Assembly: GCA_026874595.1 (NCBI GenBank)
Contig: CM049321.1
Span: forward strand, 22,561,979-22,625,978
Source: Sipunculus nudus
Lineage: Eukaryota; Annelida; Sipuncula; Golfingiida; Sipunculidae
Length of the DNA stretch: 64,000 nucleotides
Direction of reading: 5' to 3'
Made by a program: the position numbers and the translations under genes. Under the pieces are notes generated by a model, which worked only from the letters and a program-made list of their open reading frames with translations, was not told the DNA's origin and did not search any database. Below are positions 11,788 through 35,892 of this stretch, one piece after another. The first letter of the stretch is position 1, and each line of letters starts with the position of its first letter.

Positions 11788-11851
11788 ATGTTTTCCGTGC
11801 AGATGTGGGTAATGGTCTTACAGACTGCCTTCTGTGGATTTTTGGCAGCAG
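11788..11851 (+). CDS. Gene A exon 1: start and signal peptide
   Basis: Begins at ATG with an A at -3 (AAGATG). Encodes MFSVQMWVMVLQTAFCGFLA followed by A and a split Gly codon: a short N-terminus, a hydrophobic core and small residues before the probable cleavage site. The donor is CAG|gtaata, phase 1. Any 5-prime UTR extends left into sequence shared with unit 2. Confidence 0.65.
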
Positions 11852-13753
11852 GTAATAATTCTAGATGTCAAATTTTCTATTAATCTTATCGGTATTCCAA
11901 TGTCCGCTTACTTATTTTGTCCCCTTGTGTGTCCTTTAGTTAGTTAGTAATATTTCATCTACAGCTGTTAAAATGTTTGATGAATACCTGCAGTTCACTA
12001 TTCGATCGATATCCCTGACGTTATTTGATCTTTAGATCAAGATTTTTGTAGATTTTAAATTTCAACTTAGTTTAATAGGGACCTTTTCCGCTTTGTTCTT
12101 GCGATACGCTCCTAAAAGAGTTTCTGTTGTCAGCGCCTCAGATATTGGATAAGTCACTCGTCGACCTACCTGTTAATACAAGCATATTCCTTCCTTCATA
12201 CTTACGCGTTTATATATCCACCCATTGGTGAACTGACGTCTTGGGGTTTATGGTAGAAATCTTCAGGAAACTGATACAGGAACAGTCCCTGCGGCAAATT
12301 ATAGAGCACACATTGCTATTTTATTTAATTCATTGAATATTCCTGACTGCCCATAATACGTGTGTGCTGCTTTTCGTATAAATAATATATTTATAACAGA
12401 AGAAAATTTATACGGGATATATGTATATCACTAGTTCTTTAGTGCTCAGTTTAGTTTATTCCCCGGAGACGCATATGGCGAAATCGTGGGTAGTAATGTT
12501 TTGGAACAGGTTCGCTACAGATATTAGACATGTCACATGTCGACCACACGTTTTGTATCAGCATATTGCTTTCTGCATATTTCCACGTTATATACATCAA
12601 CACCTGTGTGTATTGACGCCTTCGGATTTATTTTAAAAACCGGAACCATCCACGTTATAAATGTTCAAAAAAGATATATGCATGAATAGTCCACGTCAAT
12701 TTACAGTGCACCCTATGCTATTTTAATTTCCGTTTCTATCCAAATGTCCACCTTTTGTAATTATACCCAGCTAAAATAAAGATCGCTACTCATGGAGGAA
12801 CACATCTTATCTGTAGAATCATCAAAAAGAGACCAAACAGTTGGGAAAAACAAACTGGACATTTACTGTAATTTTGTTTTGCCCTGTTAGATTGTTACTT
12901 CCACATGTAGTTTCTTAGAAAATTATTGAAAGTAAAAACTTATAAGAAAATTATCTATAAACAAAACAGGTGGACATAAGTTGGTGGAACGGACTATAAT
13001 TTCTATTTATTGATTAGTCCTGTATGATCATATAATAATATTTAATTATAAATATATAAATAACATGTAATCAAATAATAATATTTATAGCGCAAGAAAA
13101 TATACAGATTTATATTATATTATAGCTAGAGCCCCAATATTCACCAACATAGATTACGGTGTGCAATTACCTGTGAATCAATGTAAAGAGAAGAATCATA
13201 TTTTGTATTATGCATTTGTTTATTCTTTTTTTTATATTTGGTTAATGAATCAAATACAGCATGCATTTTGTTTTTCTGTTTCGAAACGACAGGCAGTGAT
13301 GAATGTAAACTGGAATTCAGCATAATTTCATCGAAAACTTATCTGGAGAATATCAGACTGCGGATAGTGCTTTCTGGACCGTCTAGATCAGAGAAACCTA
13401 AATTATATAGTCTTCAAAAACTAACAAACGCTAAGTGAGTCTTTCATGCTAATTCCTGTAACAATCATTGCCATGAAATGTAATTCTTTTACCTGTTCGG
13501 ACTAGTGGCTTAAATATATGATTGAGATAAATGTTACAAAATGTATTTCCTAATAAACAGCCAGATAATAGAAATCCATAGATCCCTTGTTAATTCAATG
13601 AGAATGCAGTGACATTTAGTTTAATTTACATATATATCACGATGAAAAAAACCCTGTAAATTCACTACAGATTGTTTCACGGGATGCGACCCGATCCCCT
13701 GGTAAATGTTGTTAGAATCTTCCGTGCCCCTGCACTCTCGAGATATATATATT

Positions 13754-13809
<56 letters not shown>

Positions 13810-16800
13810 TATTTGTATGTGTGCGTGTGTGTATCCTGTTTTATCGGTGGAACCTGGACTTTTCTGAAAGTCCATTCTGTCCAAGTCTTTATCTTTTCTT
13901 TTATTCAGAAAGTATTATTCTTTATTCTTAGTAATATAACGCAATAAGCTTCATCGTTTGAAAATGTGTGTACGTTTAAATCATACATATCCTATTTGGA
14001 TATGATGTGACACTGGAAGAATTACATGTTGGAATATGTTATTTAATAATTAGTGGCCAGACACCTGTAAATAAAATATGCAAAACAGATAACGGCTAAT
14101 TTGATAAATAATCAGCAGCTATTTAAGTTATGATGTTCTTTTAAAAGAAACACTACACTTAATCCCAAGAACTTGTTTCATTTTCATTATTTATGTGCAT
14201 TTTAATATATTAAAATATACTTTATTTACAAGCGTATGTCAAATTGTGTTGATTTGAATATTTTATACCCGTATATCTTTATCTGTGCAAAGCAAATGAA
14301 TTTATTATCAATTAATATATTCCACAAATTTATTTTGTTTTCGAATGATATTTATGCATGGTTTTAATATGATCGCCATTTATCCAAGATTGCGGAAGAA
14401 ATAATGCACATGACGTTTTAGTAACAGTATGGTTCAAAGTATGGTCGGAGAACTACATTTGCAAAAATATATATGAGAATTCCACAAAATATCCATACCT
14501 GACCTATAATTTTCCTTTTACAAAAGAGAGAGCTATCCGTTAACACGTTCTCATGTTTTCATCTGTCGACAGCAAGGGGCGCAGCCTACACATTACAGGA
14601 ACATGCCCATCAGGAGAAGTGGAAAAAAATCCAGATTAAAAAAACATCCGGGGACCATTTCATCATAAAAAACGTAAGTTATGCAACAAGCAGTACACAA
14701 TGGTCGAATTACATTTGTGTCAACTCAGCTCCTCCCATTCAAACACTGCTTTCAAATATCCTGCAGTAGTTGCTGTATATCGCCACTAGGCAGTCGGGTT
14801 TTAAATATTCCTGACAAATTGTGGAACTCCCAATAACCCGCTCTTATTGTTCGAAACATTTCTGGCGACATGTTGACCCCTAGGGACAATATATAGCAAG
14901 CCATGCTTTTAAATGTAGTGAAATTTATTACATAATATATTATAAGTAACCGGTACGTAAAGGAGAGTAAGCTAATGGGAAAATAAGGTCTTTACTGGGG
15001 ATAAAATCCTGAACTTTTCTATTTAAAAACGTACGTGAATAATCCGAACAAACTGCTATGTATGCTATATGTATAATGTATGTTTAAATGTATGTCATTG
15101 TATGGCAAACTCAAAAACAAATTAGACAGACATTCTTAAAGAACAAAATATATAGGTTTTAAAGAAAGAAGACACATTTCTTTGGAGAGGCGTTCCACAT
15201 GTACAAGTACTGATGGTTAAAAACGTCAAATAATAAACATAGAAATAAACACCAAGTCCATTTATCCCACTACACAGTGGAGTCCCTTGTCTTCACTTCT
15301 CCTGATCACATGACCTTCGCTCACAGTTGACATAAGAATAATGAGCTGGTCGCCTCACTGCTTGCTCGTGCTCGGTACATAGTACAAGCTTTCAATTTAT
15401 AGATACTCGGAGCTTCGGCAACCAACAGGCCCTCGCTGGAATACTGGATTGCCTCTCGTAATACAGTTCAAACAGCACTTACCAATTAGCGCATAGAATT
15501 TCTATCTGGACAAAGAATCAATGTCTTTTACAGTTGATGTCTGCTGCAATCAATCACCTATATATGGTTCCACACAGCGATTTCCACTACCTCTACAGGT
15601 TCGCGGTTAAATAATGTCCTCGGTCTGTTTCTGGAAGCGCTTACTACAGGTATAAATCTTCAGGTTTACCGGTCCTCGGCATAAATGCGATGCTAAGTCT
15701 GAAGTCCGTTACAGAGTAATTACCGTGGCCGTCCTGAGACACCGATTATCTAAGCTTATAGACATCATCTCTCAGCTGTCTCGACTCTGATACACGCAGA
15801 CCTGACAACTAGAATGCAGATCGCCTCAGTCTACACCGGCTGCATGGCGTACTGGTCGGAATATTGTATCCAATAACTTCTTAATCACGTCTTATATTTG
15901 CATGCTGACCGTCTTCTGGCCAGTCATCACTTCCCACTACGCCTACCGTTAATAACAACATGGATTTAAATATAGATACGCCTCAAGTGAAACATAAACC
16001 TGAGAAAACCAAACGTAACAAGTGTTTTTCCTTTGAAATCTACATAAAACACTCAACTATAGAGACCTATAGGTAATCCGATAGAGACCGGCAAACAGAG
16101 ACTGCTCCGACGGAATTAAAATGCACTTAAATTAACATCAAACGAGACACCTGTGCTCTCTTACCAAAGTTCTCACGCTTATATCTAACCATGATTCTCC
16201 ATATAAATGTATTACAAATTAACATAACAATCATCTGATTATACTCTCTAGTTAAATATTCAACACAATGGCTAAGTCACAGTTCTCTGGTAACAAAGTT
16301 ATTATTTATAAAACATCATGATTGACTCAAAGTATGTTGTTTTGAGTGTATAGTGCCATATTAACCCGGGTATGACGGATTTGTTTGATAAACTGACAGA
16401 CCAGTGATTTAGGTAAGACTAGTGATTTAGGATAAATATATTCATAAAGTAGATAAGTGTCTATCCAAATGTAAATAAAAGTGAAAGTAGAATTTATGGA
16501 AAAAAAGTTATAATCTTTAAATTGTTTTTTCGGTAATAAATAACCTTTAAGCCAGATATAGTAAAGAATACATCTTCTCAGATAGATTCTCACAATAGAC
16601 TGTGAATTCAGCAGGCCACCCAAATAATCAATAAAGCATACATATATATTTGAAAATGTTACAGTATTTAGAAAAGCTATTCAATTTTCGTTGTGCATTT
16701 TTTTAATTTTAATTTTAAAAAGACAAACTCGTCACAGAAAACGTATTTAGAGAGAAAGGCATAATTTTGGTTTCACACTAGTTATTGTGGAAATACAATT

Positions 16801-17356
16801 CATGTCATGGTTTCGTTTATATATATATGTAGGTAATCCTAGGTGTCACTGGCTAACGACTTTGTAATTTGGTAAAAAAGAAAATATGCTGTTGTTTACC
16901 TCACAAACATAGGTGTAGAAAGATATTGGATATGATTGTTTAATGACGGCAAATGACCCTTTCAATTCAATTCATAGTTTCTATTTTATAGGTGACCGTT
17001 CTCAGAAACAGAGACCAGAAGAAATGGCATTTCAAGGGTTCAGATATTCTAATTGGAAGAAAACCATTAGTAAAATTCTACAGTAGCGGTATGAGACATT
17101 ATACTACATGTTAATGCGTTGAAATATGTTTTCTCAAACGTAGACACCAGCATAAAGTTTGCAATATCAATCACTTTCTCTCCTGCAGAACTTGTGGAAA
17201 CGGTATATCTATGTAAATGACGTACTTTGGTCTTTACTGTTCCAATCTCAGTAAAGTCATATGTTCCCCACTGCTTTGGACATACCTGTTTGTTTAGCTC
17301 TTCTTATATATATCTAATATACCTAATATCCCCATAACAAGGTCGAGCACTATATG

Positions 17357-17406
<50 letters not shown>

Positions 17407-17889
17407 GTATATATATAAATATATATATTCTATTTCGGAAACATAAAAACTTAATATTTGACAGCCGTTGAATGCCTGATGTATGTTAAAGCTCCGTTAA
17501 AATATGGCTGCATTTAAAAGAAAACAGTTGGTTTCCAGAACCATGGAAACGGTCCATTTGAGCACAAATAAAACAGATTCGGAGCAAATTAATAGCCTTT
17601 AAACCGATTGAGTTGTCCCCCACAAATGTAAGATTTTATAGCCATGCGTACAAATATGAATACAAGTAATATTATTTTAGACTGTCCAGTGCAAAGGTTG
17701 CAGGTCACTCTGAAGATTGACCCTTTGCATTGGAATGGGTCACTTTATTTAAAACTGCATGGAATATATGGCATATCCTACAAATGGAAGGTGATTCCGG
17801 AAAATTTCTTATTTCCAACTAGGTAGGTTTCCTTACCTGAATAAACACAATAAGGCTCGATATATATATACATATACATATATATATAT

Positions 17890-17940
<51 letters not shown>

Positions 17941-18248
17941 ATCAGAACTTTATTCAGAGTAGACTTAGCCCAGTTATAGGCATTTGATGTCATATTAAAT
18001 TCTTATCAAAAAGTAAAGATCAACATGACTAAGGAATTAATGAGAGATATATTTTCTAATGTATCCATTGTGGTCTTCAGCATTTGATCAAGACAAAGCG
18101 AGAGGTAGTGGTTAAAGCACATTCACCTGATGATCGGGTCGCACCCCGTGAAACAGACTGATGTGAATTAAGTGTTGTTTTTCTCCAGAGTTATACCGCT
18201 CTGGCCTAGTCTGTAGGCCATAGAGCACTTTACATCGGAGGGTAACAC

Positions 18249-18341
<93 letters not shown>

Positions 18342-19674
18342 TTTAGCTTTAAATATTACTTGATTAAAGTTGCAATACTTTTGACACAAATAATTTTTCT
18401 TTTAATATAAATATCGTTTTCTACAGAAAAAAAGATCAGTTTACAATATCTTATGGAAGGAATATATTTTTTCAGTGTGATCAATGTGGCAACGGAAGAG
18501 TACTTGAGGATAAGAAATCTGACTAAAGTCACTCTAATACCCGACAGCGTCAGTCAACAGTACAAAATAATGCAGGTAGACGTATTGAATTTGACAAAAA
18601 AGATGATATAAACAACAAAACGCGGCGGATCACATACAATGCCTCAATTATAATTTGATTGTTATAGATATATGGTTCCCCATACAAGCGACTGAGAACA
18701 GTTCAGAGATGAGAATAGTAATTTTCACCGCTTAATTTGTGCCTTGGGAAAAGTGAGCAAAGCCATCAAAATGGCTATTATATTCTATAAGTTACATATT
18801 TTGAGAAGCTCCTTATATTAGATGACACATATTCCATGCCAATTACAACGCATTAGAAACGTTTTGTGTTCCCATCAGGGAAGCATGAGTACCAAACTAG
18901 TTTCTTTTGATTCAATAACTTATTTTGTTATCGGGTGCTACTGAACACAATTGTATTGAATGTTGTTGCCAGATAACCCTTGTTGAGTATCCCTTCAAAC
19001 GTGAGTGGAAGCTTCCATGCCCCTGCAATCTCGCAAGCGGCAATGTGGAAATCGACTTATCTATGACGAAGGAGAGAACGACAGCTGGCTGTCTGTCAGT
19101 GACAAGAACTTTTAAGGTTGACGCTCAAGGTAACTAAATTTACTCGGTTGATTAAGTTTTGCTGGTTTGGTCTCGTCATTACTTTCAGCAGATTACAAAA
19201 TAACCAAGCTTCTTGGAGCGCATAGCAAGACGTCTAAAAAACTTACGCATATGTCATCTTTTCCATATTAAAGCAAGGTTTCCAAGTGCCTTACAAGAAC
19301 GAACGATTTTTAATGTGGTTTCTCATCTTTTTACCAAATGACTATATGACAAATTATTTGAGAATATACTCAAGGCAAATATAGATCTTATATTGAATTC
19401 AAGTGCATAAACAAAACTTGAAGCAACATTCAGTTTTACGCCTATTATAGGTAGAACACGCAAAATATCTGGAAACAGATTCTGCAAGATCGACTACAAA
19501 GGGGGCCAAGTGGGTCCAGTTTGTGCGAAGACCCATTGTGCTTCAAAGTGCGTGGCCAAAGAAGGTTGTCGTGGATTTGCAATGACTCAAACACAATCTG
19601 GTATCTGCAAGTGTGAATTGCTGTTTGAAAGAGAGGCGGTAAATAACAAAGTTGGAACATACTGGAGATGTTAA
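11788..19674 (+). CDS. Gene A: secreted two-domain PLAT-like protein, eight exons, exon 3 frameshifted
   Basis: Predicted exons: 11,788-11,851; 13,293-13,434; 14,573-14,673; 16,992-17,088; 17,681-17,822; 18,476-18,575; 18,973-19,129; 19,451-19,674. All introns are GT-AG and phases agree. The product would be about 340 residues: a signal peptide (1-21), PLAT/LH2-like domain 1 (exons 2-4, about 22-134), domain 2 (exons 5-7, about 135-267) and an eight-cysteine tail (268-341). The PLAT call rests on LRIVLSGPS and YLKLHGI strands, V-x-I/KVTLIPDS strands and W-x-x-(L/F)-P-C-like ends (EWKLPCPC); such domains bind lipids or proteins in lipases and lipoxygenases. Exon 3 has 101 bases instead of 100 because of an extra A, giving a stop at 14,637. 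Either the gene is dead, or exon 2 is skipped, or the base is a sequence error. Function is unknown. Confidence 0.65.
12421..12640 (+). pseudogene. Decayed duplicate of the exon 1 region
   Basis: The stretch 'gtgctcagtttagtttattccc' repeats the flank upstream of exon 1 ('gtgctcggtttagatcattcc' near 11,740), followed by remains of an ATG region. Equivalents are at 28,521-28,740 and 50,030-50,230. In unit 2 an ATG survives (28,588), but no signal peptide plus donor can be read. It is an old duplicated first exon inside intron 1. Confidence 0.5.
13293..13434 (+). CDS. Gene A exon 2: first part of PLAT-like domain 1
   Basis: 142 bases, phase 1 in and 2 out, acceptor gacag, donor AA|gtgagt. Encodes CKLEFSIIS, then LRIVLSGPSRSEKPK, which resembles the PLAT strand pair before the conserved Gly-Ser turn. 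The length and phases equal those of exon 5. Confidence 0.7.
13672..13745 (-). repeat. SINE-like fragment
   Basis: The B-box-like GGGTCGCATCCC on the minus strand (13,681-13,692) and its flank recur at 29,860-29,935 (same orientation) and 18,120-18,150 (plus strand). It directly precedes a (TA)n. Confidence 0.45.
13741..13812. repeat. (TA)n microsatellite, interrupted
   Basis: TA units with TG and GTA interruptions, followed by a TG-rich stretch. The matching tract in gene B is at 29,923-29,980. Confidence 0.95.
14573..14673 (+). CDS. Gene A exon 3, frameshifted by one A
   Basis: The acceptor cgacag and donor AAC|gtaagt are intact. The run at 14,623-14,629 has seven A; gene B and the relics imply a 100-base exon. 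In the frame set by exon 2 translation stops at TAA 14,637-14,639. In the frame compatible with a direct exon 1 to exon 3 splice the whole exon is open and leads correctly into exon 4. The ancestral peptide here is C-P-S-G-E-V-E followed by I-K-K-T-S-G-D. Confidence 0.65.
15190..16140. repeat. Conserved GC-richer block in intron 3
   Basis: A 0.9-kb stretch clearly less AT-rich than its surroundings and well conserved in gene B (31,120-32,060) and relic C (53,020-53,840). No open frame of note on either strand. It could be an old LTR or other element, or a regulatory block; it was present before the copies split. Confidence 0.6.
16992..17088 (+). CDS. Gene A exon 4: end of PLAT-like domain 1
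   Basis: 97 bases, phase 0 in and 1 out, acceptor tatag, donor GCG|gtatga. Encodes VTVLRNRDQKKWHFKGSDIL and on to FYSS; the V-T-V strand followed by W-H-F is the usual C-terminal pattern of PLAT domains. Confidence 0.7.
17189..17202 (+). other. Possible 14-nt micro-exon (poison type)
   Basis: AACTTGTGGAAACG is flanked by ctcctgcag and gtatat. The same 14 bases with splice-like flanks are at 32,999-33,012 in gene B. Skipping it joins exons 4 and 5 in frame; including it shifts exon 5 into a frame that stops quickly. Conservation could simply reflect recent duplication. Confidence 0.25.
17357..17430. repeat. (TA)n microsatellite in intron 4
   Basis: Interrupted TA tract; gene B has a shorter one at the same place (33,175-33,211). 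Confidence 0.95.
17681..17822 (+). CDS. Gene A exon 5: first part of PLAT-like domain 2
   Basis: 142 bases, phase 1 in and 2 out, acceptor tttag, donor ACTAG|gtaggt. Encodes CPVQRLQVTLKID, then GSLYLKLHGI, a match to the PLAT 'vyikLyG' strand. Compared with exon 5 of gene B, nine codons change the amino acid (counting the two split codons) and two are silent. Confidence 0.75.
17860..17938. repeat. (TA)n microsatellite in intron 5
   Basis: Starts about 40 bases after the exon 5 donor; the gene B counterpart is 33,644-33,728. Confidence 0.95.
18097..18165 (+). repeat. tRNA-like SINE fragment in intron 5
   Basis: A-box-like GGTAGTGGTTAAAGC (18,104-18,118) and B-box-like GGGTCGCACCCC (18,136-18,147). 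In gene B only the first part survives near 33,860, so this segment is partly missing there. Confidence 0.55.
18253..18339. repeat. (TA)n microsatellite in intron 5
   Basis: About 40 TA units with single interruptions; the counterpart in gene B is 33,889-33,966. Confidence 0.95.
18476..18575 (+). CDS. Gene A exon 6
   Basis: 100 bases, phase 2 in and 0 out, acceptor ttcag, donor CAG|gtagac. Encodes VINVATEEYLRIRNLTKVTL followed by IPDSVSQQYKIMQ, the middle strands of domain 2. Same length and phases as the ancestral exon 3. Confidence 0.7.
18973..19129 (+). CDS. Gene A exon 7: end of PLAT-like domain 2
   Basis: 157 bases, phase 0 in and 1 out, acceptor gccag, donor CAAG|gtaact. Encodes ITLVEYPFKREWKLPCPCNL and continues to DAQ. 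EWKLPCPCNL matches the aromatic-x-F-P-C-N end of PLAT domains. This exon is present in all four copies (35,192, 49,799, 54,780). Confidence 0.75.
19451..19674 (+). CDS. Gene A exon 8: eight-cysteine tail and stop
   Basis: 224 bases, phase 1 in, acceptor tatag, ends in TAA at 19,672-19,674. Eight cysteines; CAKTHCASKCVAKEGCRGF and GICKCEL resemble the core of PAN/apple domains, though it is short for a whole one. An even cysteine count in a secreted protein suggests four disulfides. Only genes A and B have this exon. Confidence 0.75.
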
Positions 19675-19797
19675 ATGCTGGTAGATGCCCAACTATCCTC
19701 GGGAAGCAGAACAAAACAACAAATAATACACTGATTTATCAACAATACTACAATATAAAACTTTCAGCATAGATATTGTATATGTGAAATATATGTC

Positions 19798-19803
19798 AAT
19801 AAA
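19798..19803 (+). other. Polyadenylation signal, gene A
   Basis: AATAAA 124 bases after the stop codon, conserved at 36,016 in gene B. Confidence 0.55.
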
Positions 19804-20142
19804 TTCATCAAATTTGAGCTGGACATAATGAGTTTAAAAACCATATGAAATTATTTTCGAGGTCCGACCGTCCATTTAAAGGGAAAGCTTTGTTATTATA
19901 CGTCCCTTATATCTATAAGGGTACGTTTCCTTAGAAACCCTATCTCTTAATCCAAAGTTATAATAATCATTAAATAAAATATCAAGACCATCAGCAGTAT
20001 CTTAAACATATATGTATTTCTAAAATTAGGTATTTAATTAAACCGACTGCACCATCATACACAGACTTAGAAAATTACTAGAAGACCTGTTGGTATATTG
20101 TGATTAGGCTGAAGTCGGAGCAGCTGACTTCTGTTGTTTTGA

Positions 20143-20290
20143 GGAAGTGGCTAACCAGCCGGCAGGGTCCGGGTGTTTAGTCCACAGTCCAAACAGCCGG
20201 TAAATGAATGCATGCTCGATTTTAGAGTTTCAGTGAGATACTCCGTACTTTCCATTATTTTCCTGTCAATGAGTTGACAATATACAGCTG
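20143..20290. mobile_element. MITE-like fragment
   Basis: Starts with GGAAGTGGCTAACCAGCCGG and ends near 'tgagttgacaatatacagc'. Relatives are at 36,361-36,508, 36,958-37,110 and the complete-looking element at 62,344-62,531. Only one terminal repeat is recognisable here. Confidence 0.5.
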
Positions 20291-20600
20291 ACATCCCAAA
20301 TTAGTTATTTTGCTGGTCTATATGTAGTAAATATGTTGAATATTTATTAAAAGGGCACATTTTGTGATATTTACAGGTTAGTTTAATATAAATTTATAGG
20401 AATTGAACTGAAGTTGACTGGCATATCAGCTGCTCATTTATGCTTAAGAGCAGACAATGAGTAATGTGTGAAAGCACAGGCAACTACATATTTTAATGTA
20501 GATATTAACACACTGCAGCAACATTACTTTCAAGTAGTCACTTGAAAAGAAGTCTACTGTCCAAAATATGAAATTAATGATGCCCATGAGGAGCCGTATG

Positions 20601-20604
<4 letters not shown>

Positions 20605-20669
<65 letters not shown>
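20605..20669. repeat. (TA)n microsatellite
   Basis: About 32 TA units at the junction between units 1 and 2, preceded by the repeat shared with 10,380-10,493. Confidence 0.95.
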
Positions 20670-20670
<1 letters not shown>

Positions 20671-20880
20671 TGATTATGTGCTGCCTTTCAATTAACGAAA
20701 TAAACGAAAGGTGTCCTTTTGCACGTGGACTGTAAATTTTATCTAACTCTGTCAATGTCCTATTATTTTGATGCTCTAGAGTGCAATATAATTTCCTGTA
20801 CCCTCTCCTGATCAGGAAACATATTTAGGATTCACTTACTTTAAACATTTATATGAATGCAATGTTTTTTTTATAACAGA
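20670..20880 (+). repeat. Repeat shared with 26,750-27,000
   Basis: Begins 'tgattatgtgctgcctttcaa' directly after a (TA)n at both places and includes 'ggtgtcc...gcac' and 'cctattattttga'. It is non-coding. Confidence 0.65.
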
Positions 20881-22290: not shown

Positions 22291-23890
22291 TATAGAGCTC
22301 AATTTCGCTAATATAATCTTATGTTTGCTTGTCCAATCATTATCCTCCCCATACATCTGCATGCCAAAGTTATTTATGGCGCTTTCTAGCATTCCTGTTT
22401 ACCTACGCTGTAGAGATGAGCCCATTACTTTACTGATATGTTTGTTTATTTGTTTGTTTTTTATTGCTTTAATTTTATATGTTGTTTGCTATATATAAGC
22501 TGATCTCAAGAGAATTCCGCTATACTGTGTTAATGGCAAAGTTTATTTTGTTTTCTGAAGAGTAATGGCCAGATGGTTTTAGGGGCTAAAATGTTACTAA
22601 ATTAAACCTCAGGTGGGCATCCCTTTCAGTCTTGTTTGTACTATACCCACGTACAAACATTGATTTTTTTTCGATCTGTAACTATATTTTGACCAGAGCC
22701 ACAAGTATTTTAAGGTCAAAACAATAAGTATAATATTTTTGCCTGTTTGACACACTGTTACCTCAACAATAACAAGTTATTTTAAAATAAGTAAATAAAT
22801 GTTGAGAGAGCAGAGTCCAGAATTTGTCAAATTCCAAAACAATTTACACATATAAATTAGGTGTCTTGATCAAGAAAATTTAGTTTTAAGTCAATTTAGA
22901 ATTTAAAATAAAGAAAATGAACAATTTATCTTGTTTATCGCAGCAGTTTCATACAAACATAGCTGACAAGGCTACCTGATACAATAACACCTCGCCTAAC
23001 ATTCTACTCGTAAAAATGACCACCTATAAATAACAACCACTTTTCATGGTCCTGATTTTTCGCTCACTAATTTTCGTCCCAATGCGTTATCTGAACCTCA
23101 ATCAAGTGACCACTTTTTATGGAGTAAATATTTCCTTGACAGGCAGAGCGGGGAGTCACTAATGCATTGCATCACTAATGCGTTAAAGGCAGTAGGTGAT
23201 ACAAGTGCAGAATATATAAAAGCGTGTTCACGAATGCTCACACCAGCCAGGAATGTTTACATTGCGGTTTCATAATTTGTATGAGACCTGCCGATAATCA
23301 TATGCGTGATACGTGGGCCCCTAACTTTGATTAATTCACTGGTTCAGTAAAGATTAATAATTGGTTAATATTTGACTCACTGTTGGGCTATTTATAAACT
23401 TTATTGGCTGAGGAAAGCGACTGAGCAATGCTCATTGTTCAATGTTCCTCGTACATATATTGTAAATAAAAGATGTTGTGCTTCAGATGTGCTTGGATAT
23501 TATTTATTATTATTATTATTTGTTTGACTTTACTCCATTTATAATATAACTGCATAATATCACATAATCGTATCGTGTTTATTTCCTGGCTAATGTAAAT
23601 TTAGGTGGAAAACTGAATCAGTAATTCCTAATAATATAAATAGCAAGGGTTTGTTAACAGGACACTTAATGTTAAGAACGTACAACAAGACGAGCTTTTA
23701 TAAGGCTCTTGACAGTGAAACCTCCCTGAGGGGACCACCTGGAAAATGCGACCGCTTCATCGTGGTCCCGTGTTTGTAATTCCGAGGTTTTACTTTATAC
23801 CTAAAGCATCAGTATGCGCTTATAATTAATGGCAGTGGTTATTACAGCAGTAGTCTTGGTTTTATGGACTTTATATAAAAGCAGAACTGT

Positions 23891-23895
23891 AAGAC
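23891..23895 (+). repeat. Target-site duplication, left (AAGAC)
   Basis: Five bases repeated at 25,069-25,073 on the other side of the LINE insertion. Unit 1 has a single AAGAC at the empty site, 8,456-8,460. Confidence 0.75.
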
Positions 23896-23896
23896 T

Positions 23897-24889
23897 TACT
23901 CCTCATCGCGTGCTCTTGAATGCTCGGTCCCGCAAGGGAGCTGCTTGGGCCCATGGCTCTCCCTGACCTATGCAGGAACATTATTCAATGAGATCCCACC
24001 GTCCGTATCAGTCTACGGGTTCGCTGATGATCACATCGCCAACCTACGTTTTAGGCCTGCGTCTTCACTTGAGGAAATTGCAACTGTTAACAAACTTGAA
24101 CAATTTGCAGTAACTATAAATGATTGGATGAACAGTAACAAGCTCAAAATGAATACTAAAAAGACCGAATTTATATTGTTTGGTGGCAAAGCCCAATTGA
24201 AAAAATGTACAACAAATGAAATTGATATTGCAGGTGACAAAGTTTATTTAGTTAACTGTATTAAATATTTGGGGGCGTATTTAGATTGTGTATTAGACTT
24301 TAAAGAACATGTAAAAATGAAATGTCGTGTAGCTATGTTGAATTACTTCAGGATTAAGTGCATACGAAAATACCTGACAAAAGAGGCTGCTGAAATACTC
24401 TGTTTGTCATTGGTTATGTCACATCTAGATTATTGTAATGGAATACTATATGGAATTGCAGAAAGTGATATATATAAGATGCAGCGAATTCAGTCAATGT
24501 GTGCCAAGCTGGTATTAAATCGAAGAAAACGCGAAAGTTTTAAACAAGCACTGTTTGATCTTCACTGGCTTCCTATCAAAGCCAGGATAAATTTCAAAAT
24601 ATTAACATTTGTGTACAATTGTTCAGTTGGCAATGCTCCGGTGTACTTGACTGAACTTCTTAAATCATCTGAGGTGAAAAGGCCCGGACTGCGCTCAGAA
24701 AATACTTTGAACTCCTTGTATATTATTCCTTTTAACAAGAGAAAGACTTTTAATGATAGAAGCTTTGGAACTATTGGTCCTAAATTGTGGAACGTTCTTC
24801 CAGATTATATTAAGCAATCTGCCTCACGCGACACTTTTAAAAAGAATCTTAAAACATTTTATTTTAGTAATTTCTATTCACTCTTTTAA
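23897..24889 (+). CDS. LINE reverse transcriptase, C-terminal part, intact frame
   Basis: Open from the first base of the insertion; the first ATG at 23,945 is not a natural start. Motifs: CSVPQGSCLGP (RT block before the active site, residues 9-19 of the fragment), YGFADD (F-A-D-D catalytic aspartates, about residues 43-48), NDWMNSNKLKMNTKKTEFIL (thumb side), KYLGAYLD, then the C-terminal region LHWLPIKARINFKIL, TIGPKLWNVLPDYIK typical of CR1/Jockey-type elements. It lacks the endonuclease and the N-terminal RT blocks, so it cannot act alone, but there is no internal stop, which fits a young insertion. Confidence 0.9.
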   Translation, partial: YSSSRALECSVPQGSCLGPWLSLTYAGTLFNEIPPSVSVYGFADDHIANLRFRPASSLEEIATVNKLEQFAVTINDWMNSNKLKMNTKKTEFILFGGKAQLKKCTTNEIDIAGDKVYLVNCIKYLGAYLDCVLDFKEHVKMKCRVAMLNYFRIKCIRKYLTKEAAEILCLSLVMSHLDYCNGILYGIAESDIYKMQRIQSMCAKLVLNRRKRESFKQALFDLHWLPIKARINFKILTFVYNCSVGNAPVYLTELLKSSEVKRPGLRSENTLNSLYIIPFNKRKTFNDRSFGTIGPKLWNVLPDYIKQSASRDTFKKNLKTFYFSNFYSLF

Positions 24890-27000: not shown

Positions 27001-27364
27001 AGATCGTGGACGGAAATTCATGAAAGCATCGATATTTTTCAGCACATTTCTCTCTTAAGTTAGTGTATAAGTAATAAAAATGGTCAGTCATCATACTAAT
27101 ACAAAGGAAAATAGTAGGCAAATATTAATTATATAATTATATATTTTTCCCCTGCGTACGAATAGTAAGCGGTGCACACTTTTCACTCGTGTGTTATTTC
27201 CAAGCTGATGGTGGCGGTGTTTGCATTCATTTATTCAGCCTATATTCCCAGGTTCATTCGTCCATATTTAATTATACATTTTGTGAATATTCCTTGATAA
27301 CGATCCTGAATCCGGAGCATATTTTGTGTCCACATCAAAAACATTGATTCTTCATTGTCACATT
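27001..27364. other. Spacer without recognisable feature
   Basis: AT-rich sequence between the shared repeat and unit 2 part 2. I see no open frame, repeat or RNA gene in it. Confidence 0.4.
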
Positions 27365-27883
27365 CCCGAATGCCTTTGTCCAGATGTATTTAATAAGTAC
27401 ATTTTCTTGGCTTTTATTGGCAAAAAATGTTTCCCATTTATTCATCCACCTAAATCTATTTCTGCTTAATACATAATTCCTGTTGATTCGATTGGAATAT
27501 TTCGTATATTTATGTTTTTATTAATTTCTTAGATGGGATATAATATATATGTAACGGGTCCTTTTTGAACCCTCTCTTTGTACTGAAGTGAACTAAATTA
27601 CCACTCAAGTACCAAAGGTGCAAGTTCAGTGCAGTAAATCTCAATGCACTCTTAAGTGTTAAGCAATGACACGTTCATGCCCCACGGACTCTCATAGTGA
27701 TTTTGTTAATCGATATATTTCAGACAGTATCCAAGACTCAAGATTAATAGATTTTCGTTGTTTATATTAGTATTGACTACTTGATGCATGTGACACTTCT
27801 CATTATCATTTTGCATATATTCAACGCAGGTTCTTAAGTGCTCGGTTTAGATCATTCCCCCGAAGAAGCATTTCCGGTATAAG

Positions 27884-27947
27884 ATGTTGTCCGTGCAGAT
27901 GTGTGTAATGGTCTTACAGACTGCCCTCTGTGGCTCTTTTGCAGCAG
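27884..27947 (+). CDS. Gene B exon 1: start and signal peptide
   Basis: Encodes MLSVQMCVMVLQTALCGSFA plus A, then donor CAG|gtaatg, phase 1. It differs from gene A at five of 21 residues but keeps the hydrophobic core. Confidence 0.65.
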
Positions 27948-29918
27948 GTAATGATTGAAGATGTCACATCTTCTATTAATCTAATCAGTATTTCCATGTC
28001 TGCTTACTTATTTTGTGTCCTTCAGTTAGTTAGTAATATTTCATCGACTGCTGTTAAAATGTTTGATGAATAACTGCAGACCTCGGGTCACTATTTGATC
28101 AAAATCCCTGACGCAATAAGATTTTTGTAGATTTTAAATTTCAACTTAGTTTAATAGGGACCTTTTCAGCTTTGTTCTTGCAATACGCTTTTAAAAGAGT
28201 GTCTGTTATCAGCGCCTCAGATGTTGGATAAGTCACTCGTCGACCTCCCTGTTAATACAATATATTTCTTCCTGCATACTCACACGTTTATATATCCACC
28301 CATTGGTGTACTGACGTCTTCGGATTTATTTTAAAAAGATGAACATGACATGGTAGAAATCTTCAGGAAACAGGTACAAGAACAGGCGCTGCGGTAAATT
28401 ATAGAGCACACATTGCTATTTTATTTAATTCATTGAATATTCCTGACTGCCCATAATAATTGTGTGCTTCTTTTCGTATAAATTATATATTTATAGCAGA
28501 AGAAAATAAATACGGGATATATGTATATCACTAGTTCTTTAGTGCTCAGTTTAGTTTATTTCCCGGGGAAGCATATGCGGCATAAGATGTATATGACGAA
28601 GACGTGGGTAGTGTGGTTTTGGAACAGGTTAGCTACAGATATAAGACATGTCACATGTCGACCACACATGTTTTGTATCAACATATTGCTTTCTGCATAT
28701 TCCCACGTCATATACATCCAAACCTGTGTGTATTGACGTCTTCGGATTTATTTTAAAAACAGGAACTTGACATGTTATAAATATTCAGAAAAGATATATG
28801 CATGGATAGTCTTCACATCAGTTTACAGCGCACACTATGCTATTTTAATTTCCGTTTAATTCCAAATGTCCACCTGTCCTTTTTTAACTATACCAAGCTA
28901 AAAAAAGAAGGATATTCATGGAGGAACACATCTGATCTGTCGGATCTTCAAAAAGAGACCAAACAGTTGTGAAAAATAAACTGAACATTTATTATTTTTT
29001 TGTATTGCCCTATTAGATTTTTACTTCCATATGTAGTTTCCTAGAAAGTAATTTGAAATAAAAACGTATAAGAAAATTATCTAGAAAAACAGGTGGACAT
29101 AAGTTGGTGGAAAGGACTATAAATGCTATTTATTGATCTCCTGTATGATCATATAATAATATTTAAATATATATATATATATAGAAATAACATGTTATCA
29201 AATAGAAATATCTATAAAGCATGAAAATATACAAATTGGTATTATATTAAAGCCAGAGCCCCAATATTCACCGACATAGATTACGGTGTTCAATTACCTG
29301 TGAATCAATGTAATGAGCTGAATCAACTTTTGTATTATGCATTTGTTTATGTTTTTACATTTGGTTAATAATTCAAATACAGCATGCATTTTGTTTTTCT
29401 TTTTCGAAACGACAGGCAGTGATAAATGTAAACTAGAATTCAGCATAATCTCATCGGAAACCTACCTGGAGGAAATCAGACTGCGGATAGTACTTTCTGG
29501 ACCGTCTAGATCGGAGAAACCTAAAAAATATCGTCTTCAAAAAATTGCAAACGCTAAGTGAGTCTTTCATGTTTATTCATGTAATAATCATTGACATGGA
29601 AAGTGAATTCTTTGACCTGTTCGGACTTGTGGCTTAAGTATATGTTTGAGATAGATGTTACCAAATGCATTTCTTAATTAACAGCGTGGGAAATTAAGAT
29701 GGATCATCAGAGCACATAAATGATAGTATAAAGGACCATAAAAAATCATTGAAATCCAAAGAGCCCTTGATAACCCAGTGTGACTGCAATGCCATTCAGT
29801 TTAATATACTTATAATCACGGTGAAAAAAAAACACTGGAAATTCACTACAGACTGTTCCACGGGATGCGACCCGATCCCCTGATGAATGTTGTTAGAATC
29901 TTCCTTGCCCCTGCAATC

Positions 29919-29979
<61 letters not shown>

Positions 29980-32900
29980 TTGTGCGTGTGCGTGTGCGTG
30001 TATCCTGTTTTATCGGTAGAACCTGGAATTTTCTGATAATTCAGCAGCTATTTAAGTTATGATGTTCTTATAAAAGGAACACTACACTTAATCCCAAGAA
30101 CTTGTCTAATTTTCATTATTTATATGCATTTTTATAAATTAAAATATACTTTATATACAAACGTATGTTGAATTGTGTTGATTTGAATATTTTATACCCG
30201 AATTACATTACCTGTTCTATGCAAAACAAATGAATTTATTATTATGTAATATATTTCACAAATTTATTTTGTTTCCGAATGATATTTATGCAGGGTTTTA
30301 ATATGATCGCCATTTATCCAAGATTGCGGAAGAAATAATGCACATGATTTTTTTTTAGTAAGAGTATGGTTCAAAGTATGGTCGGAGAACTACGTTTGCA
30401 AAAATCTAGATGACAATTCCACAAAATAACCATACCTTACCTGACATTTTCCTTATTTCATCTTAATTCGAGCGAGCAATCCGTTAACACGTTCACATGT
30501 TTTATCTGTCGACAGCAAGGGGCGCTTCTTTAACATTACGACGACATGCCCATCAGGGGAAGTGGAATAAATCCAGATTAAAAAAACATCCGGGGACCAA
30601 ATCATCATACAAAACGTAAGTTATGTAACAAGCAGAACATAATGGTTGAATTACATTTGTGTCAACTCAGCTCCTGCCATTCAAACACTGCTTTCAAATA
30701 TACTGCAGTAGTTGCTGTATATCGCCACTAGGGAGTCGGGTTATAAATATTCCTGACAAATTGTGGAACTCGCAATATCCCTCTTTATTGTTCGAAACAT
30801 TTCTGGCGACATGTTGACACCTAGGGGCAATATACAGCAAGCCGTGCTTTAAGATGCAGTGGAATATATTACATAATATATTATCAGTAACCAGTGTGTA
30901 AAGGAGAGTAAGCTAATGGGAAAGATAAGGTCTTTACTTGGGATAAAATCCTGAACTTTTTTATAAAAAAGTACGTGAAAAATCCTAATAAACTACTATA
31001 TATGTACATATATAATGTAAGTTTAAATGTATGTCATTGTTTGGTAAACTCAGAAACAAATTAGACAGACATGCATTAACAAAAAAAATATACCGGTATT
31101 AAAGAAAGAAGACATATTTCTCTGGAGAGGCGTTCCACATGTACAAGTACTGATGGTTAAAAACGTCAAATAATAAACATAGAAACAAACACCAAGTCCA
31201 TTAACCGCACTACAAAGAGGAGTCCTTCGTTTTCACTTCTTCTAATCACATGACCTTCGCTCACATGTGACATAAGAATAATGAGCTGGTCACCTCGTGC
31301 CCTGTACATAGTACAACCTTTCAATTCATAGTTACTCGGAGCTTCGGCCACCAACAGGCCCTCGCTGGAATACTGGTTTGTCTCTCGTAATACAGTTCAA
31401 ACAGCAATTACCAAATAGCGCATAGAATTTCTACCTGGACAAAGAATCAATGTCTTTTACAGTTGATGTCTGCGGAAATCATTCAGCTTTATATGCTCTC
31501 ACACAGCCATTTCCACTACCTCTACAGGTACGCGGTTAAATAAAGTCCTCGGTCTGTTCCTGCAAGCGCTCACTACAGGTATAAATCTTCAGGTTTACCG
31601 GTCTGTCGGCATAAATGTGATACTTATTCTGAAGTCCGTTACAGAGTAATTACCGTGGCCGTCCTTAGACGCCGACTATCTAAGCTTATAGACATCATCA
31701 CTCAGCTGTCTCGACACTGATACCCGCAGATCTGACACCTAGAATGCAGATATCCTCAGGCTACACCGGCTGCATGGGGTACTGGTCGGAATATTGTATC
31801 CAATATCTATTTAATCACGTCTTATATATGCATGCTGGCGTCACACCTCCAGACCGTCTTCTGGCCAATCATCACTGCCCACTACGCCTACCGTTAATAA
31901 CAATATGGATTTAAATATAGACACGCCTCCAGTGAAACACAAACCTTAGAAAACCAAACTTAACAAGTGCCCTTCCTTTGAAATCTAATACAAACACTCA
32001 TAACTATAGAGACCTATAGGTGTTCCTAAACTGCACTTAAATTAGCATCAAACGAGACACTTGTGCTTTTTACCAAAGTTCTCACGCTTATATCTAATCA
32101 TGATACTCCAAATAAATGTATAATGATTTATCATAACAATCATCTGATAATACTCTCTACTTGATTATTTAAAACAATGCCAAAGTCACAGTTATCTGGT
32201 GACAATGTTATCATTTATAAAACATCATGATTGACTCAAAATGATGTTGTTTTGAGTGTATAGTTCCATATTAATCTGGGTATGACGGATTTGTGTGATA
32301 AACTGACAGACTAGTGATCTAGGATTAATATATAATACAGTGGAAGTGAAAGTGGAATTTATGGAAAAATGGTATAACCTTTATATTTCTTTCCGGTAAT
32401 AAATAACCTTAAAGCCAGCCATAGTAAAGAATAAATCTTCTCAGATAGGTTCTCACGATAGACAGTGAATTCAGCAGGCCACCCACATAATCAATAAAGC
32501 ATACATATTTATTTGTAAATATTAGATTATTTAGATAAGCGTTTCAATTTACTTTGTGCAATATTTTAATTTAATTTTTAAAAGACAAACTCCTCACAGA
32601 AAACATGTACTTTAGAGAAAGGCATCATTTTAGTTTCACACTGGTTATGGTGGAAATTTACGTCATGGTTTCGTTTATATATATGTAGGTAATCCTAGGT
32701 GTCACTGGCTAACGACTTTGTAATTTGGTAAAAAGATGCTGTTGTTTACCTCACAAACATAGGTGTAGAAAGATATTGGATATGATTGTTTAATGACGTT
32801 AAATGACCCTTTTATTTAAATTCGTAGTTTCTATTTATAGGTGACCGTTCTCAAAAACAGAGACAAGAGGAAATGGCATTTCCAGGGATCAGATATTCTA

Positions 32901-33170
32901 ATTGGAAGAAAACCAACAGTAAAAGTCTACAGTAGCGGTATGAGACATTATACTACATGTTAATGCGTTAAAATATGTTTTCTCAAACTCTCTTGCAGAA
33001 CTTGTGGAAACGGTGTATCTATGTAAATGCCTTTCACGTACTTTGGTCCTTTACTGTTCCAGTCTCATTAAAATACATATGTTCCCCACCGCCTTAGGGC
33101 ATAACTGTTTTTTTAGCTCTTCGTATATATATCTATCTAATATCCCAATAACAAGGTCGAGCACTATATG

Positions 33171-33212
<42 letters not shown>

Positions 33213-33642
33213 TATTTCGGAAACATACAAACTTAATATTTGACAGCCGTTGAATGCATGATGTATGTTAAAGCTCCGTTAAAATATGGCTGCATTTAAA
33301 AGAAAACGATTTGTTTCCAGAACCATGGAAACGGTCAATTTGAGCATAATTAAAAAAGATTCGGAGCAAATGTATAGCCTTTAAACAGCAATTGGGTTGT
33401 CCCCAACAAATGTAAGATTTTATATCCATGCGTACAAAGATGAATACAATTAATGTTATTTTAGAGTGTCCAGTGCAAAGGTTGCAGGTCACTCTGAAGA
33501 TTGACCCTTTGAAATGGAATGGGTCACTCTATTTAAAACTGCATGGAATAAATAATATGTCCTACAACTGGAAGGTGCTTCCTGAAAATTTCATATTTCC
33601 AACTGGGTAGGTTTTCTAAACTGAATAAGCACAATTAGGCTC

Positions 33643-33728
<86 letters not shown>

Positions 33729-33884
33729 GCCTAGTTATAGGCATGTGATGTCAAATTAAATTCTTATCAACAAGTAAAGATCAACATGACTAAGGAATTA
33801 TTAAGATATATTTTGTGATTTATCAATTGTGGTCTTCAGCATTTGATCAAGACAAACCGAGAGGTAGTGATCTGTCTTGAAAGT

Positions 33885-33966
<82 letters not shown>

Positions 33967-35892
33967 GTTTAGCTTTAAATATTACTTGATTAAAGTTGCA
34001 ATACTTTTGATACAAACAATTATTCTTTTAATATAAATAAAGTTTTCTCCCGAATAAATAATGAACTTACAATATCTTATGGAAGTAATATATTTTTATA
34101 GTGTGTTCCATGTGGCAACGGAAGAGTACTTGGGGATAAGAAATCTGACGAAAGTCACTCTAATACCCGACAGCGTCAGTCAACAGAAAAATATAATGCA
34201 GGTAGAAGTATTAAATTTGACAAAAAAGGATAATATACACAATGCACGGCTGATCACATACAATGCCTTTATTATAATTTGATTTTTATAGATATATGGT
34301 TCTCCATACAAGCGACCGAGAACAGTTCAGAGATGAGAATAGTAATTTCCACCACTATTTGTGCCGTGGGAAAAGTGAGCAAAGCCATCAAAAGGGGAAT
34401 CGACTGCTCCAGGTTCAAAATCTGAACTACTGGGTGGCAGATTATCAGAATCTTACATGTCGATAGAAGTAATAGGTGTAAAAAGAACCTGCACGGCTAA
34501 TATTGCGTCATTGTTGTGCCAATTTACAACCACATCAAGTTTAATCTTAGCCCCTATCAACAATTCAATTTCTTCGTGTCATAAAAACATACCAAAATAC
34601 AAGTTCTGCAATCAATAAATAACGCAAAATTTAAAAACAAACTAAAAATCTGCATTCTAGTAAATGCAAGCCTCAACCATGCAGAAAACCCTATTGTATG
34701 ATGTTCACAAAACCATGGTTGCATTATCTTATTCGCCCCGTATTGCAAGGTTCTTAAGTGACTGTACATATTTGAATATTCCTTAATAAAGTCCCTAAAT
34801 CCGAATCATATTCCGGAAATTCCAAAAAAAAATCTAATCTAATCGATTCAACAAAAGTCGATTCCCAAATTTCCTTGTAAATAATATGAGATTTCGATAT
34901 GATAGTGTGAGGTTTGTTGTTCGAAACAGAAACGCACACTTACGTATGAGAATGAAGGCATACCTTCCCGGCAGTGCCAATAATGTAAACTGCTATTATA
35001 TTCTATAAGTTATATATTTTGAGAAGTTCCTTATATTAGATGACACATATTCCATGCCAATTACAGGGTCATTAGAAACGTTCTGTGTTCTCATCAGGCA
35101 AGCATTAGTACTAAACTAATTTCTTTTGATTCAATAACTTATTTTGTTATCGAGTGCTATTGAACACAATTGTTTTGAATGTTGTTGCCAGATAACTCTT
35201 GTTGAGTATCCCTTCAAACGTGAGTGGAAGCTTCCATGCCCCTGCAATCTCGCAAGCGGCAATGTGGAAATCGACTTATCTATGACGAAGGAGAAAACGA
35301 CAGCTGTCTCTCTGTCAGGTACAGGAACTTTTAAGGTTGACGCTCAAGGTAACTAAATTTACTCGGTTGATTAAGTTTTGCTGGTTTGCTCTCGTCATTA
35401 CATTCAGCAGATTACAAGTAACAAGCTCCTTGGGGCGCATAGCAAGACGTCTAATAAGCTTACGCATATGTCATCTTTTCCATATTAAAGCAAGGTTTCC
35501 AAGTGGCTGACAAGAACGAACGATTTTTAATGTGGTTTCTCATCCTTTTACCAAATGACTAATGACAAATCATATGTGAAATGAACCCCAAGGCAAATCT
35601 AGATCTTATATTGACTTCAAGTACATAAACAGAACTTGAAGCAACATTCAATTTTACGCCTATTATAGGAGGAACACGCAAAGTATCTGGGAACAGATTC
35701 TGCAAGATCGACCACAAAGGGGGCCAAGTGGGTCCAGTTTGTGCGAAGACCCATTGTGCTTCAAAGTGCGTGGCCAAGGAAGGTTGTCGTGGATTTGCAA
35801 TGACTCAAGCACAATCTGGTAACTGCAAGTGTGAATTGCTGTTTGAAAGAGAGGCAGTGAATAACAAAATTCGAACATACTGGAGATGTTAA
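27884..35892 (+). CDS. Gene B: paralogue of gene A, in-frame stop in exon 3
   Basis: Predicted exons: 27,884-27,947; 29,416-29,557; 30,516-30,615; 32,841-32,937; 33,465-33,606; 34,102-34,201; 35,192-35,348; 35,669-35,892. Same GT-AG sites, phases and lengths as gene A, except exon 3 (100 versus 101). Signal peptide, two PLAT-like domains and the eight-cysteine tail are all present. In exon 3 a TAA at 30,568-30,570 interrupts the frame where the relics have a sense codon. Exons 2-4 form a phase 1-1 cassette; a transcript skipping all three would join exon 1 to exon 5 in frame and give a shorter secreted protein with only domain 2 and the tail. Whether it is a live gene with such a product or a recent pseudogene cannot be decided from sequence. 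Confidence 0.65.
28521..28740 (+). pseudogene. Decayed duplicate of the exon 1 region
   Basis: Counterpart of 12,421-12,640. 'ggcataagatgtatatgac' resembles the exon 1 start, and an ATG remains at 28,588, but the following sequence gives no signal peptide plus donor. Confidence 0.5.
29416..29557 (+). CDS. Gene B exon 2: first part of PLAT-like domain 1
   Basis: 142 bases, open, phase 1 in and 2 out, donor AA|gtgagt. Compared with gene A seven codons change the residue and six are silent. Confidence 0.7.
29860..29935 (-). repeat. SINE-like fragment
   Basis: Paralogue of 13,672-13,745; precedes the (TA)n at 29,923. Confidence 0.45.
29923..29980. repeat. (TA)n microsatellite followed by GTGTGC units
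   Basis: About 28 TA units, then a short GCGTGT run to 30,001, in intron 2. Confidence 0.95.
30516..30615 (+). CDS. Gene B exon 3 with nonsense codon
   Basis: 100 bases with intact acceptor cgacag and donor AAC|gtaagt. The frame from exon 2 reads CPSGEVE and then TAA at 30,568-30,570; the rest (IQIKKTSGDQIIIQN) is in frame with exon 4. The lesion lies in the same A-rich run that is expanded in gene A. Confidence 0.65.
31120..32060. repeat. Conserved GC-richer block in intron 3
   Basis: Paralogue of 15,190-16,140. A 62-codon minus frame (31,166-31,354) exists here but is interrupted in gene A, so it is not supported as coding. Confidence 0.6.
32841..32937 (+). CDS. Gene B exon 4: end of PLAT-like domain 1
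   Basis: 97 bases, phase 0 in and 1 out. Encodes VTVLKNRDKRKWHFQGSDIL and onward. Six replacement and one silent codon relative to gene A. Confidence 0.7.
32999..33012 (+). other. Possible 14-nt micro-exon (poison type)
   Basis: Identical 14 bases to 17,189-17,202, with cttgcag before and gtgtat after. Confidence 0.25.
33175..33211. repeat. (TA)n microsatellite in intron 4
   Basis: Shorter counterpart of 17,357-17,430. Confidence 0.95.
33465..33606 (+). CDS. Gene B exon 5: first part of PLAT-like domain 2
   Basis: 142 bases, phase 1 in and 2 out. Encodes CPVQRLQVTLKID, GSLYLKLHGINN and PENFIFPT. Replacement changes cluster after the YLKLHG strand, where gene A reads IYGISYKW and gene B INNMSYNW. 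Confidence 0.75.
33644..33728. repeat. (TA)n microsatellite in intron 5
   Basis: One of the longest TA runs in the window, about 40 units. Confidence 0.95.
33889..33966. repeat. (TA)n microsatellite in intron 5
   Basis: TA tract with GTA interruptions; counterpart of 18,253-18,339. Confidence 0.95.
34102..34201 (+). CDS. Gene B exon 6
   Basis: 100 bases, phase 2 in and 0 out, acceptor tatag, donor CAG|gtagaa. Encodes VFHVATEEYLGIRNLTKVTL and IPDSVSQQKNIMQ. Confidence 0.7.
34400..34980. repeat. Intron 6 segment absent from gene A, related to 54,250-54,560
   Basis: An extra stretch in intron 6 of gene B. Its 'tattgtatgatgttc' and 'ccatggttgcattatctt' parts recur at 54,285-54,330 in relic C. 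Gene A lacks it, so it was probably lost there. Confidence 0.5.
35192..35348 (+). CDS. Gene B exon 7: end of PLAT-like domain 2
   Basis: 157 bases, phase 0 in and 1 out. Encodes ITLVEYPFKREWKLPCPCNL and ends DAQ. Five replacement and one silent codon relative to gene A, all replacements in the second half. Confidence 0.75.
35669..35892 (+). CDS. Gene B exon 8: eight-cysteine tail and stop
   Basis: 224 bases ending in TAA at 35,890-35,892. All eight cysteines of gene A are kept, while seven other residues differ. Confidence 0.75.

Follow-up and report, generated by a model that had tools for sequence, protein, structure and literature searches.

What do two tandem genes in the genome of the sipunculan annelid Sipunculus nudus encode, and do they still work? 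We examined a stretch of 64,000 nucleotides of assembly GCA_026874595.1 (contig CM049321.1, positions 22,561,979 to 22,625,978 of the forward strand), referred to here as the window, in which a first-pass annotation had proposed two genes for a secreted protein with two PLAT-like repeats and a cysteine-rich tail. We judge it slightly better than an even chance that the window holds two tandem copies from a small, fast-evolving family whose members encode a basic secretory protein of about 320-330 residues, composed of a signal peptide, two strongly diverged PLAT domains and a PAN/Apple-like tail, which would act as an extracellular recognition factor.

Exon structure and copies of the double-repeat genes

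The two genes lie on the forward strand, gene 1 at 11788-19674 and gene 2 at 27884-35892, and each consists of eight GT-AG exons. Exon order and phases are common to both, and the exons encode a signal peptide, two repeats of about 100 residues each and a tail with eight cysteines. The span proposed by the annotation, 11788..35892, was correct, running from the ATG of gene 1 (11788) to the final base of the gene 2 stop codon (35892). Its claim of matching exon phases was borne out by exon assembly: in seven of the eight exon pairs the two members match in length and give ungapped alignments with 88.7-95.5% identity, and the exon 3 pair differs by one base. The signal peptide, the two repeats, the eight-cysteine tail and all four motifs that it had quoted (VLSGPS, YLKLHGI, KVTLIPDS and EWKLPCPC) were recovered in gene 1 and, exon by exon, in gene 2. 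The exons of the two genes are as follows.

Gene 1 exon 1: 11788..11851, + strand; ATG and signal peptide MFSVQMWVMVLQTAFCGFLAA, ending in phase 1; hydropathy maximum at residue 8
Gene 1 exon 2: 13293..13434, + strand; opening part of repeat 1, entered in phase 1 and left in phase 2; counterparts in the further loci P3 and P4 (below)
Gene 1 exon 3: 14573..14673, + strand; acceptor cag/CAAG; 101 nucleotides instead of 100; frameshift at an A7 run, 14623-14629
Gene 1 exon 4: 16992..17069, + strand; end of repeat 1, VTVLRNRDQKKWHFKGSDIL
Gene 1 exon 5: 17704..17822, + strand; start of repeat 2, PLAT-like
Gene 1 exon 6: 18476..18575, + strand; repeat 2 with the KVTLIPDS strand; donor in phase 0, following PLAT model position 84
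Gene 1 exon 7: 18973..19129, + strand; end of repeat 2 (EWKLPCPC), then linker
Gene 1 exon 8: 19451..19674, + strand; PAN-like eight-cysteine tail and stop; 224 nucleotides, phase 1; AATAAA 3' of the stop codon at 19798
Gene 2 exon 1: 27884..27947, + strand; signal peptide
Gene 2 exon 2: 29416..29557, + strand
Gene 2 exon 3: 30516..30615, + strand; 100 nucleotides (the correct length), with a single in-frame TAA
Gene 2 exon 4: 32841..32918, + strand
Gene 2 exon 5: 33488..33606, + strand
Gene 2 exon 6: 34102..34201, + strand
Gene 2 exon 7: 35192..35348, + strand
Gene 2 exon 8: 35669..35892, + strand; PAN-like tail and stop; AATAAA 3' of the stop codon at 36016

Searching the animal's own 1.43-Gb genome with the gene 1 protein returned at least 33 matching places, and with the P4 protein at least 21, both counts being lower bounds. 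Besides the window and places that match only the tail, these included two more full loci, both on the window's contig (C16).

P3: C16:24044751-24037135, - strand; eight exons, 328 amino acids, open throughout
P4: C16:14593949-14605161, + strand; eight exons, 321 amino acids, open throughout

Each of the four loci has exons 4-8 of 78, 119, 100, 157 and 224 nucleotides; the length of exon 1 is 64 or 67 nucleotides, and exons 2 and 3 are shorter in P4. Because these two paralogues with intact frames have matching exon lengths, the exon assembly is not a product of chance. Over exons 4-8, gene 1 and gene 2 are 86.7% identical, the window genes and P3 56-58%, and the window genes and P4 44-46%. 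Four full-length loci on one contig fit a lineage-specific family, as far as this one genome is concerned.

The predicted proteins share the features of a secretory product. Hydropathy is highest at residues 8-9 in gene 1, P3 and P4 and lower elsewhere, with no other membrane stretch in the profile, and this N-terminal hydrophobic signal peptide predicts that the protein is secreted. The mature proteins are basic, with isoelectric points of 9.66 (gene 1), 9.43 (P3) and 9.37 (P4). N-glycosylation sequons number three in gene 1, four in P3 and one in P4, both gene 1 values being those of its first model. Intron 1 of both window genes contains a partial duplicate of the exon 1 region (12434-12476 and 28534-28613), of which the one in gene 2 has an ATG and a hydrophobic stretch; the duplicates are possibly a former alternative first exon.

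Two decayed copies lie downstream of gene 2 in the window, and a tblastn search with the eight exons found no further copy within 100 kb on either side of it.

Decayed copy C: 46823..49891, + strand; remnants of exons 3, 4 and 7, with stops in exons 4 and 7
Decayed copy D: 50033..54923, + strand; remnants of exons 1, 2, 3 and 7; exon 8 not found

Exon 3 lesions and the status of the window copies

The gene layout given by the first-pass annotation stands, but exon 3, which none of the quoted motifs touches, is damaged in both genes, and this had been missed. The conserved acceptor of exon 3, cag/CAAG, is used in P3 and retained in decayed copy D. Read from this site, gene 1 has one extra A and ends in GEVEKNPD followed by a stop; gene 2 reads GEVE, a stop, and then IQIKK. 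Gene 1 has an uninterrupted frame only if exon 3 is spliced at an acceptor four bases downstream (before 14577), and it was this acceptor that gave our first gene 1 model, a frame of 326 residues open throughout. As the natural form of the gene, that model was ruled out by the exon 3 acceptor of P3 and copy D, and the comparisons of repeat 1 with PLAT that had been made on it were discarded, including a result of 1/2000 shuffles. Gene 1 and gene 2 are probably non-functional, the main escape being an assembly error in the gene 1 homopolymer, and both are most likely pseudogenes of recent origin.

Gene 1 might still work if its A7 run were a homopolymer error of the assembly or if the downstream acceptor restored the frame. 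Single-base differences in homopolymers are a common error of long reads, which favours the first route; by the second, the entire 326-residue frame is open. The remaining seven exons are intact, and the ratio of nonsynonymous to synonymous divergence (dN/dS) between the window copies is 0.46 in exon 8, which we count in favour of a working gene. However, with the downstream acceptor the first half of exon 3 encodes residues that do not resemble those of P3, P4 and copy D, and an independent stop codon interrupts gene 2 at the spot that matches the gene 1 lesion. Over exons 4-8 as a whole, dN/dS between the copies is 0.78. Their seven introns are 89.9-93.7% identical, close to the identity of the exons, so the exons have diverged about as fast as the introns. 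We consider a working gene 1 unlikely, though with a real chance of being right. With the window copies read as recent pseudogenes, the candidates for working members of the family are P3 and P4.

Relation of the repeats to PLAT domains

We compared the repeats with a PLAT profile of 31 sequences, 28 of which were drawn from places L001-L008 and L029-L048 of this genome (L033 excluded) and three from solved structures. Four sequences of repeat 2, taken together, matched this profile over 84 columns with an hhalign probability of 91.9 and an E value of 6.8e-7, a value that applies to this single comparison of repeat 2 with PLAT; none of 300 column shuffles reached the score. The E value was 7e-7 with one profile residue corrected and 2.5e-6 without two rows that had been joined from two exons. 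As single sequences, repeat 2 of P3 and repeat 2 of P4 scored 15.6 and 7.4 bits against PLAT and repeat 1 of P4 scored 6.7 bits, in each case with 0/2000 shuffles doing as well.

The positions of the introns within the repeats bear on the same question. When the repeats were aligned blind to introns, a first intron (A) fell in model codon 48, in phase 2, in all six repeats with a covering alignment, and a second (B) fell after model position 84, in phase 0, in six of seven. Of 18 PLAT exons from this genome, seven have their best donor at codon 49 (in phase 2 in L030 and phase 0 in the rest, the L039 alignment ending one residue short), three have it after position 84 in phase 0, and eight elsewhere. 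An acceptor was found for 17 of these exons, always in phase 1, which is also the phase in which exon 2 opens repeat 1. The phase pattern 2, 0 is seen in both repeats, and in P3 exons 3 and 6 have the same length, 100 nucleotides. The common phase pattern and the PLAT-like intron positions support descent from intron-bearing PLAT repeats and an internal duplication, by which the two repeats probably arose.

Several results weigh against PLAT identity. Taken singly, repeat 2 of the window genes gave only modest scores with the larger PLAT profile (26/2000 shuffles for gene 1, 32/2000 for gene 2), and with a smaller profile of 11 sequences repeat 2 of gene 1 was not significant (339/1000). Repeat 1 is weaker: P3 repeat 1 reached 42/2000 shuffles and repeat 1 as a family 5/300 against the PLAT profile, and the comparison of repeat 1 with repeat 2 gave 8/300. 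Scanned as complete proteins, gene 1 (in its first model), P3 and P4 have no PLAT match at the PF01477 cut-off of Pfam, and neither have the pieces that were scanned. Intron A misses the usual PLAT site, codon 49, by one codon, the alignment of P4 repeat 2 puts its intron B at 81 instead of 84, and the PLAT introns of this genome themselves lie at other sites in 8 of the 18 exons. Three control PLAT domains match small PLAT profiles at E ≤1e-12, which places the window repeats far outside ordinary PLAT.

Judged by profile and introns together, repeat 2 is a diverged PLAT domain. Repeat 1 is probably one as well, since its introns lie at the same positions of the PLAT model, despite its weak profile signal. 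The PLAT identity proposed by the annotation thus holds for repeat 2 and is probable for repeat 1, and it does so below the reach of Pfam.

The repeats could instead be another small beta-sandwich with a similar strand pattern, its likeness to PLAT being convergent. The missing Pfam match would agree with this, as would two further results: the window repeats lack the TGD..GTDANV and FERGQ stretches seen in the PLAT exons examined in this genome, and a profile search of the PDB with repeat 2 found nothing. Convergence accounts poorly for a profile match of repeat 2 that is nearly full-length and for introns at or beside PLAT intron positions, and we regard it as improbable.

Taking the repeats as diverged PLAT domains, we compared the family with other PLAT proteins. 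Two multi-PLAT clusters of this genome, at C14:59.94-60.02 Mb and C4:70.29-70.37 Mb, are ones that we take to be LOXHD1-like. As in the window family, introns interrupt their PLAT repeats, in many cases at model codon 49 and in some after 84, and the start is in phase 1; unlike that family, they are long clusters of canonical PLAT repeats with the TGD and FERGQ stretches, whereas the window family is far diverged and has two repeats only. The long PLAT repeat chain of LOXHD1 was not found in gene 1, P3 or P4, in each of which two repeats are followed by the tail exon. A second comparison is with Arabidopsis PLAFP, a plant protein with a single PLAT domain that, in contrast to the window family, is not known to have a cysteine tail. 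This stand-alone PLAT/LH2 protein resembles the window family in having PLAT without a catalytic site (PMC4849433). Elsewhere in the genome, nine PLAT places lie within about 1 Mb at C10:40.57-41.58 Mb (L003, L004, L006, L007 and others), each domain within one open frame.

The terminal exon, its relatives and a proposed role

The tail is encoded by a terminal exon that is 224 nucleotides long and in phase 1 in gene 1, gene 2, P3, P4 and two loci on C7, six of the nine loci examined. Two loci on C15 have candidate terminal exons of 239 and 227 nucleotides, also in phase 1, and at one C7 locus the acceptor is unclear. The sites used at C7-1 and C15a were ranked second by tract score. Eight aligned tails have five cysteines and a G-F pair in common, and within the core C34, C40, C55 and G42-F43 are invariant in all eight, while the first core cysteine varies. 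Similarity between the groups of tails is significant, with E values of 1.8e-5 and 3.6e-6.

Plasminogen and HGF are proteins with PAN/Apple domains. The window family shares with proteins of this kind the cysteine core C-x3-C-x5-C-x-G-F ... C, which is found in the tails of gene 1, gene 2, P3 and P4, and the occurrence of a related tail near kringles; it differs from them in lying under all Pfam PAN cut-offs and in a terminal exon that ends in Cys-stop. The gene 1 tail matches PAN_4 (E 0.021, 15.3 bits versus a cut-off of 27), with 0/9 shuffles that kept the cysteines fixed matching PAN; the P3 tail matches PAN_1 (E 0.005, 17.1 bits versus 21.4), one C7 tail PAN_2 (E 0.019, 15.5 bits versus 21.1) and one C15 tail PAN_2 (E 0.14). 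On the other side of the balance, every PAN match is under its Pfam cut-off, the tails of gene 2, P4, C15a and C7-1 have none at all, and the predicted fold of the tail was unusable (mean predicted local distance difference test score, pLDDT, 40). Sequence searches of the PDB with the full protein, a two-row tail, the repeat 2 profile and an eight-row tail gave a best E value of 0.42, to a microneme protein that we take to be an Apple-domain protein. From its cysteine core and these subthreshold matches, we class the tail as a PAN/Apple-like terminal exon.

The annotation had treated the cysteine-rich tail as a trait of the family. The eight cysteines are there, but related tails also stand behind SUEL exons and near kringles. 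One C7 gene was assembled and encodes a signal peptide, a SUEL lectin (SUEL_Lectin E 3.1e-18) and the tail, and a second C7 tail has a SUEL exon upstream (E 3.9e-10). In all there are six tail places on C7 (two with a stop), five of them with a SUEL exon on the same strand at most 7 kb upstream; for the tail at C7:68334389, the genome-wide list of SUEL matches has no SUEL exon nearby. The tail of these SUEL/rhamnose-binding lectins is thus related to that of the window family, whereas their front module is a lectin and not a PLAT pair. On C15, three kringle-like open frames lie upstream of the tail in L059 (C15:55087950-55091949), two of which are kringles by Pfam (E 1.7e-25 and 7.9e-23); that these kringles, near the tail, form a single gene with it is putative. 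Exons like exons 5-7 were looked for upstream of one C7 and one C15 tail, and nothing was found. By these comparisons, the tail is not specific to the double-PLAT family. SUEL lectin exons are abundant in the genome, with 96 places at E ≤0.001, and 13 SUEL places, 12 of them above cut-off, lie between the window and P3 on C16. Clusters of SUEL exons were seen at C16:22.94-23.61 Mb, C12:7.35-8.07 Mb, C14:30.37-30.41 Mb, and C7:41.4-43.6 and 68.3-68.4 Mb.

We tentatively suggest, at somewhat below even chances, that a single PAN-like terminal exon cassette of about 224 nucleotides in phase 1 has been plugged in behind at least three unrelated recognition modules (a diverged PLAT pair, a SUEL lectin and kringles). 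The outcome would be a modular set of secreted recognition proteins, specific to the lineage, that all end in the same adaptor. The PLAT pair would contact the target surface, binding to lipids or membrane-bound proteins having been proposed for this domain in other proteins; the shared tail would serve as the common adaptor, for a partner or for assembly; and the different front modules would feed one downstream function, such as humoral defence, mucus or a gamete coat. We infer the role of extracellular recognition factor; what the analysis shows is the architecture and the homology.

Rates of divergence are relevant to this role. Over exons 4-8, dN/dS is 0.49 between P3 and P4 and 0.56-0.84 in the five other pairs. 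The high values, which reach 0.98 in exons 5-7 of the window copies and 0.88 in the tail of P3 versus P4, tell against our explanation to some degree; high dN/dS over exons 4-8 would suit immune or reproductive secretions, and decay of the window copies also raises it. That the whole family has gone out of use and is decaying on this chromosome, as four damaged copies of the six found on C16 (gene 1, gene 2, copies C and D) and a dN/dS of 0.49-0.84 across six pairs might suggest, is very improbable, since decay would not preserve P3 and P4 open over eight exons, with exons 4-8 of equal length, at a synonymous divergence of 0.92.

The annotation's remark that no described family has exactly this secreted layout agrees with what we found in the literature. 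A combination of PLAT with an Apple domain was not found in the literature searched, subscription papers being mostly outside its scope; PLAT, PAN domain and mollusc were not found together, PLAT with PAN alone not having been searched for; and no work was found that joins three of PLAT domain, kringle, rhamnose-binding lectin, SUEL and PAN domain. The finding is one of known modules newly combined in a small family, interesting but not radical. If our explanation is right, PLAT domains would have taken on a new role at the front of a rapidly evolving secreted recognition protein, and PLAT, lectin and kringle proteins would be joined by a single terminal exon, which would offer a testable handle on the role of the shared tail. 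The family would also show how far PLAT can diverge: out of range of family profiles, yet still recognizable by its intron positions.

Two neighbours in the window complete the description. Between gene 1 and gene 2, an open frame of 336 residues (23879-24889, + strand) resembles, by eye, a non-long-terminal-repeat (non-LTR) reverse transcriptase. On the opposite strand (57360-57683, -), further downstream than the PLAT-pair copies, lies an exon like a C-type lectin domain, with a Pfam Lectin_C E value of 0.012, under the cut-off.

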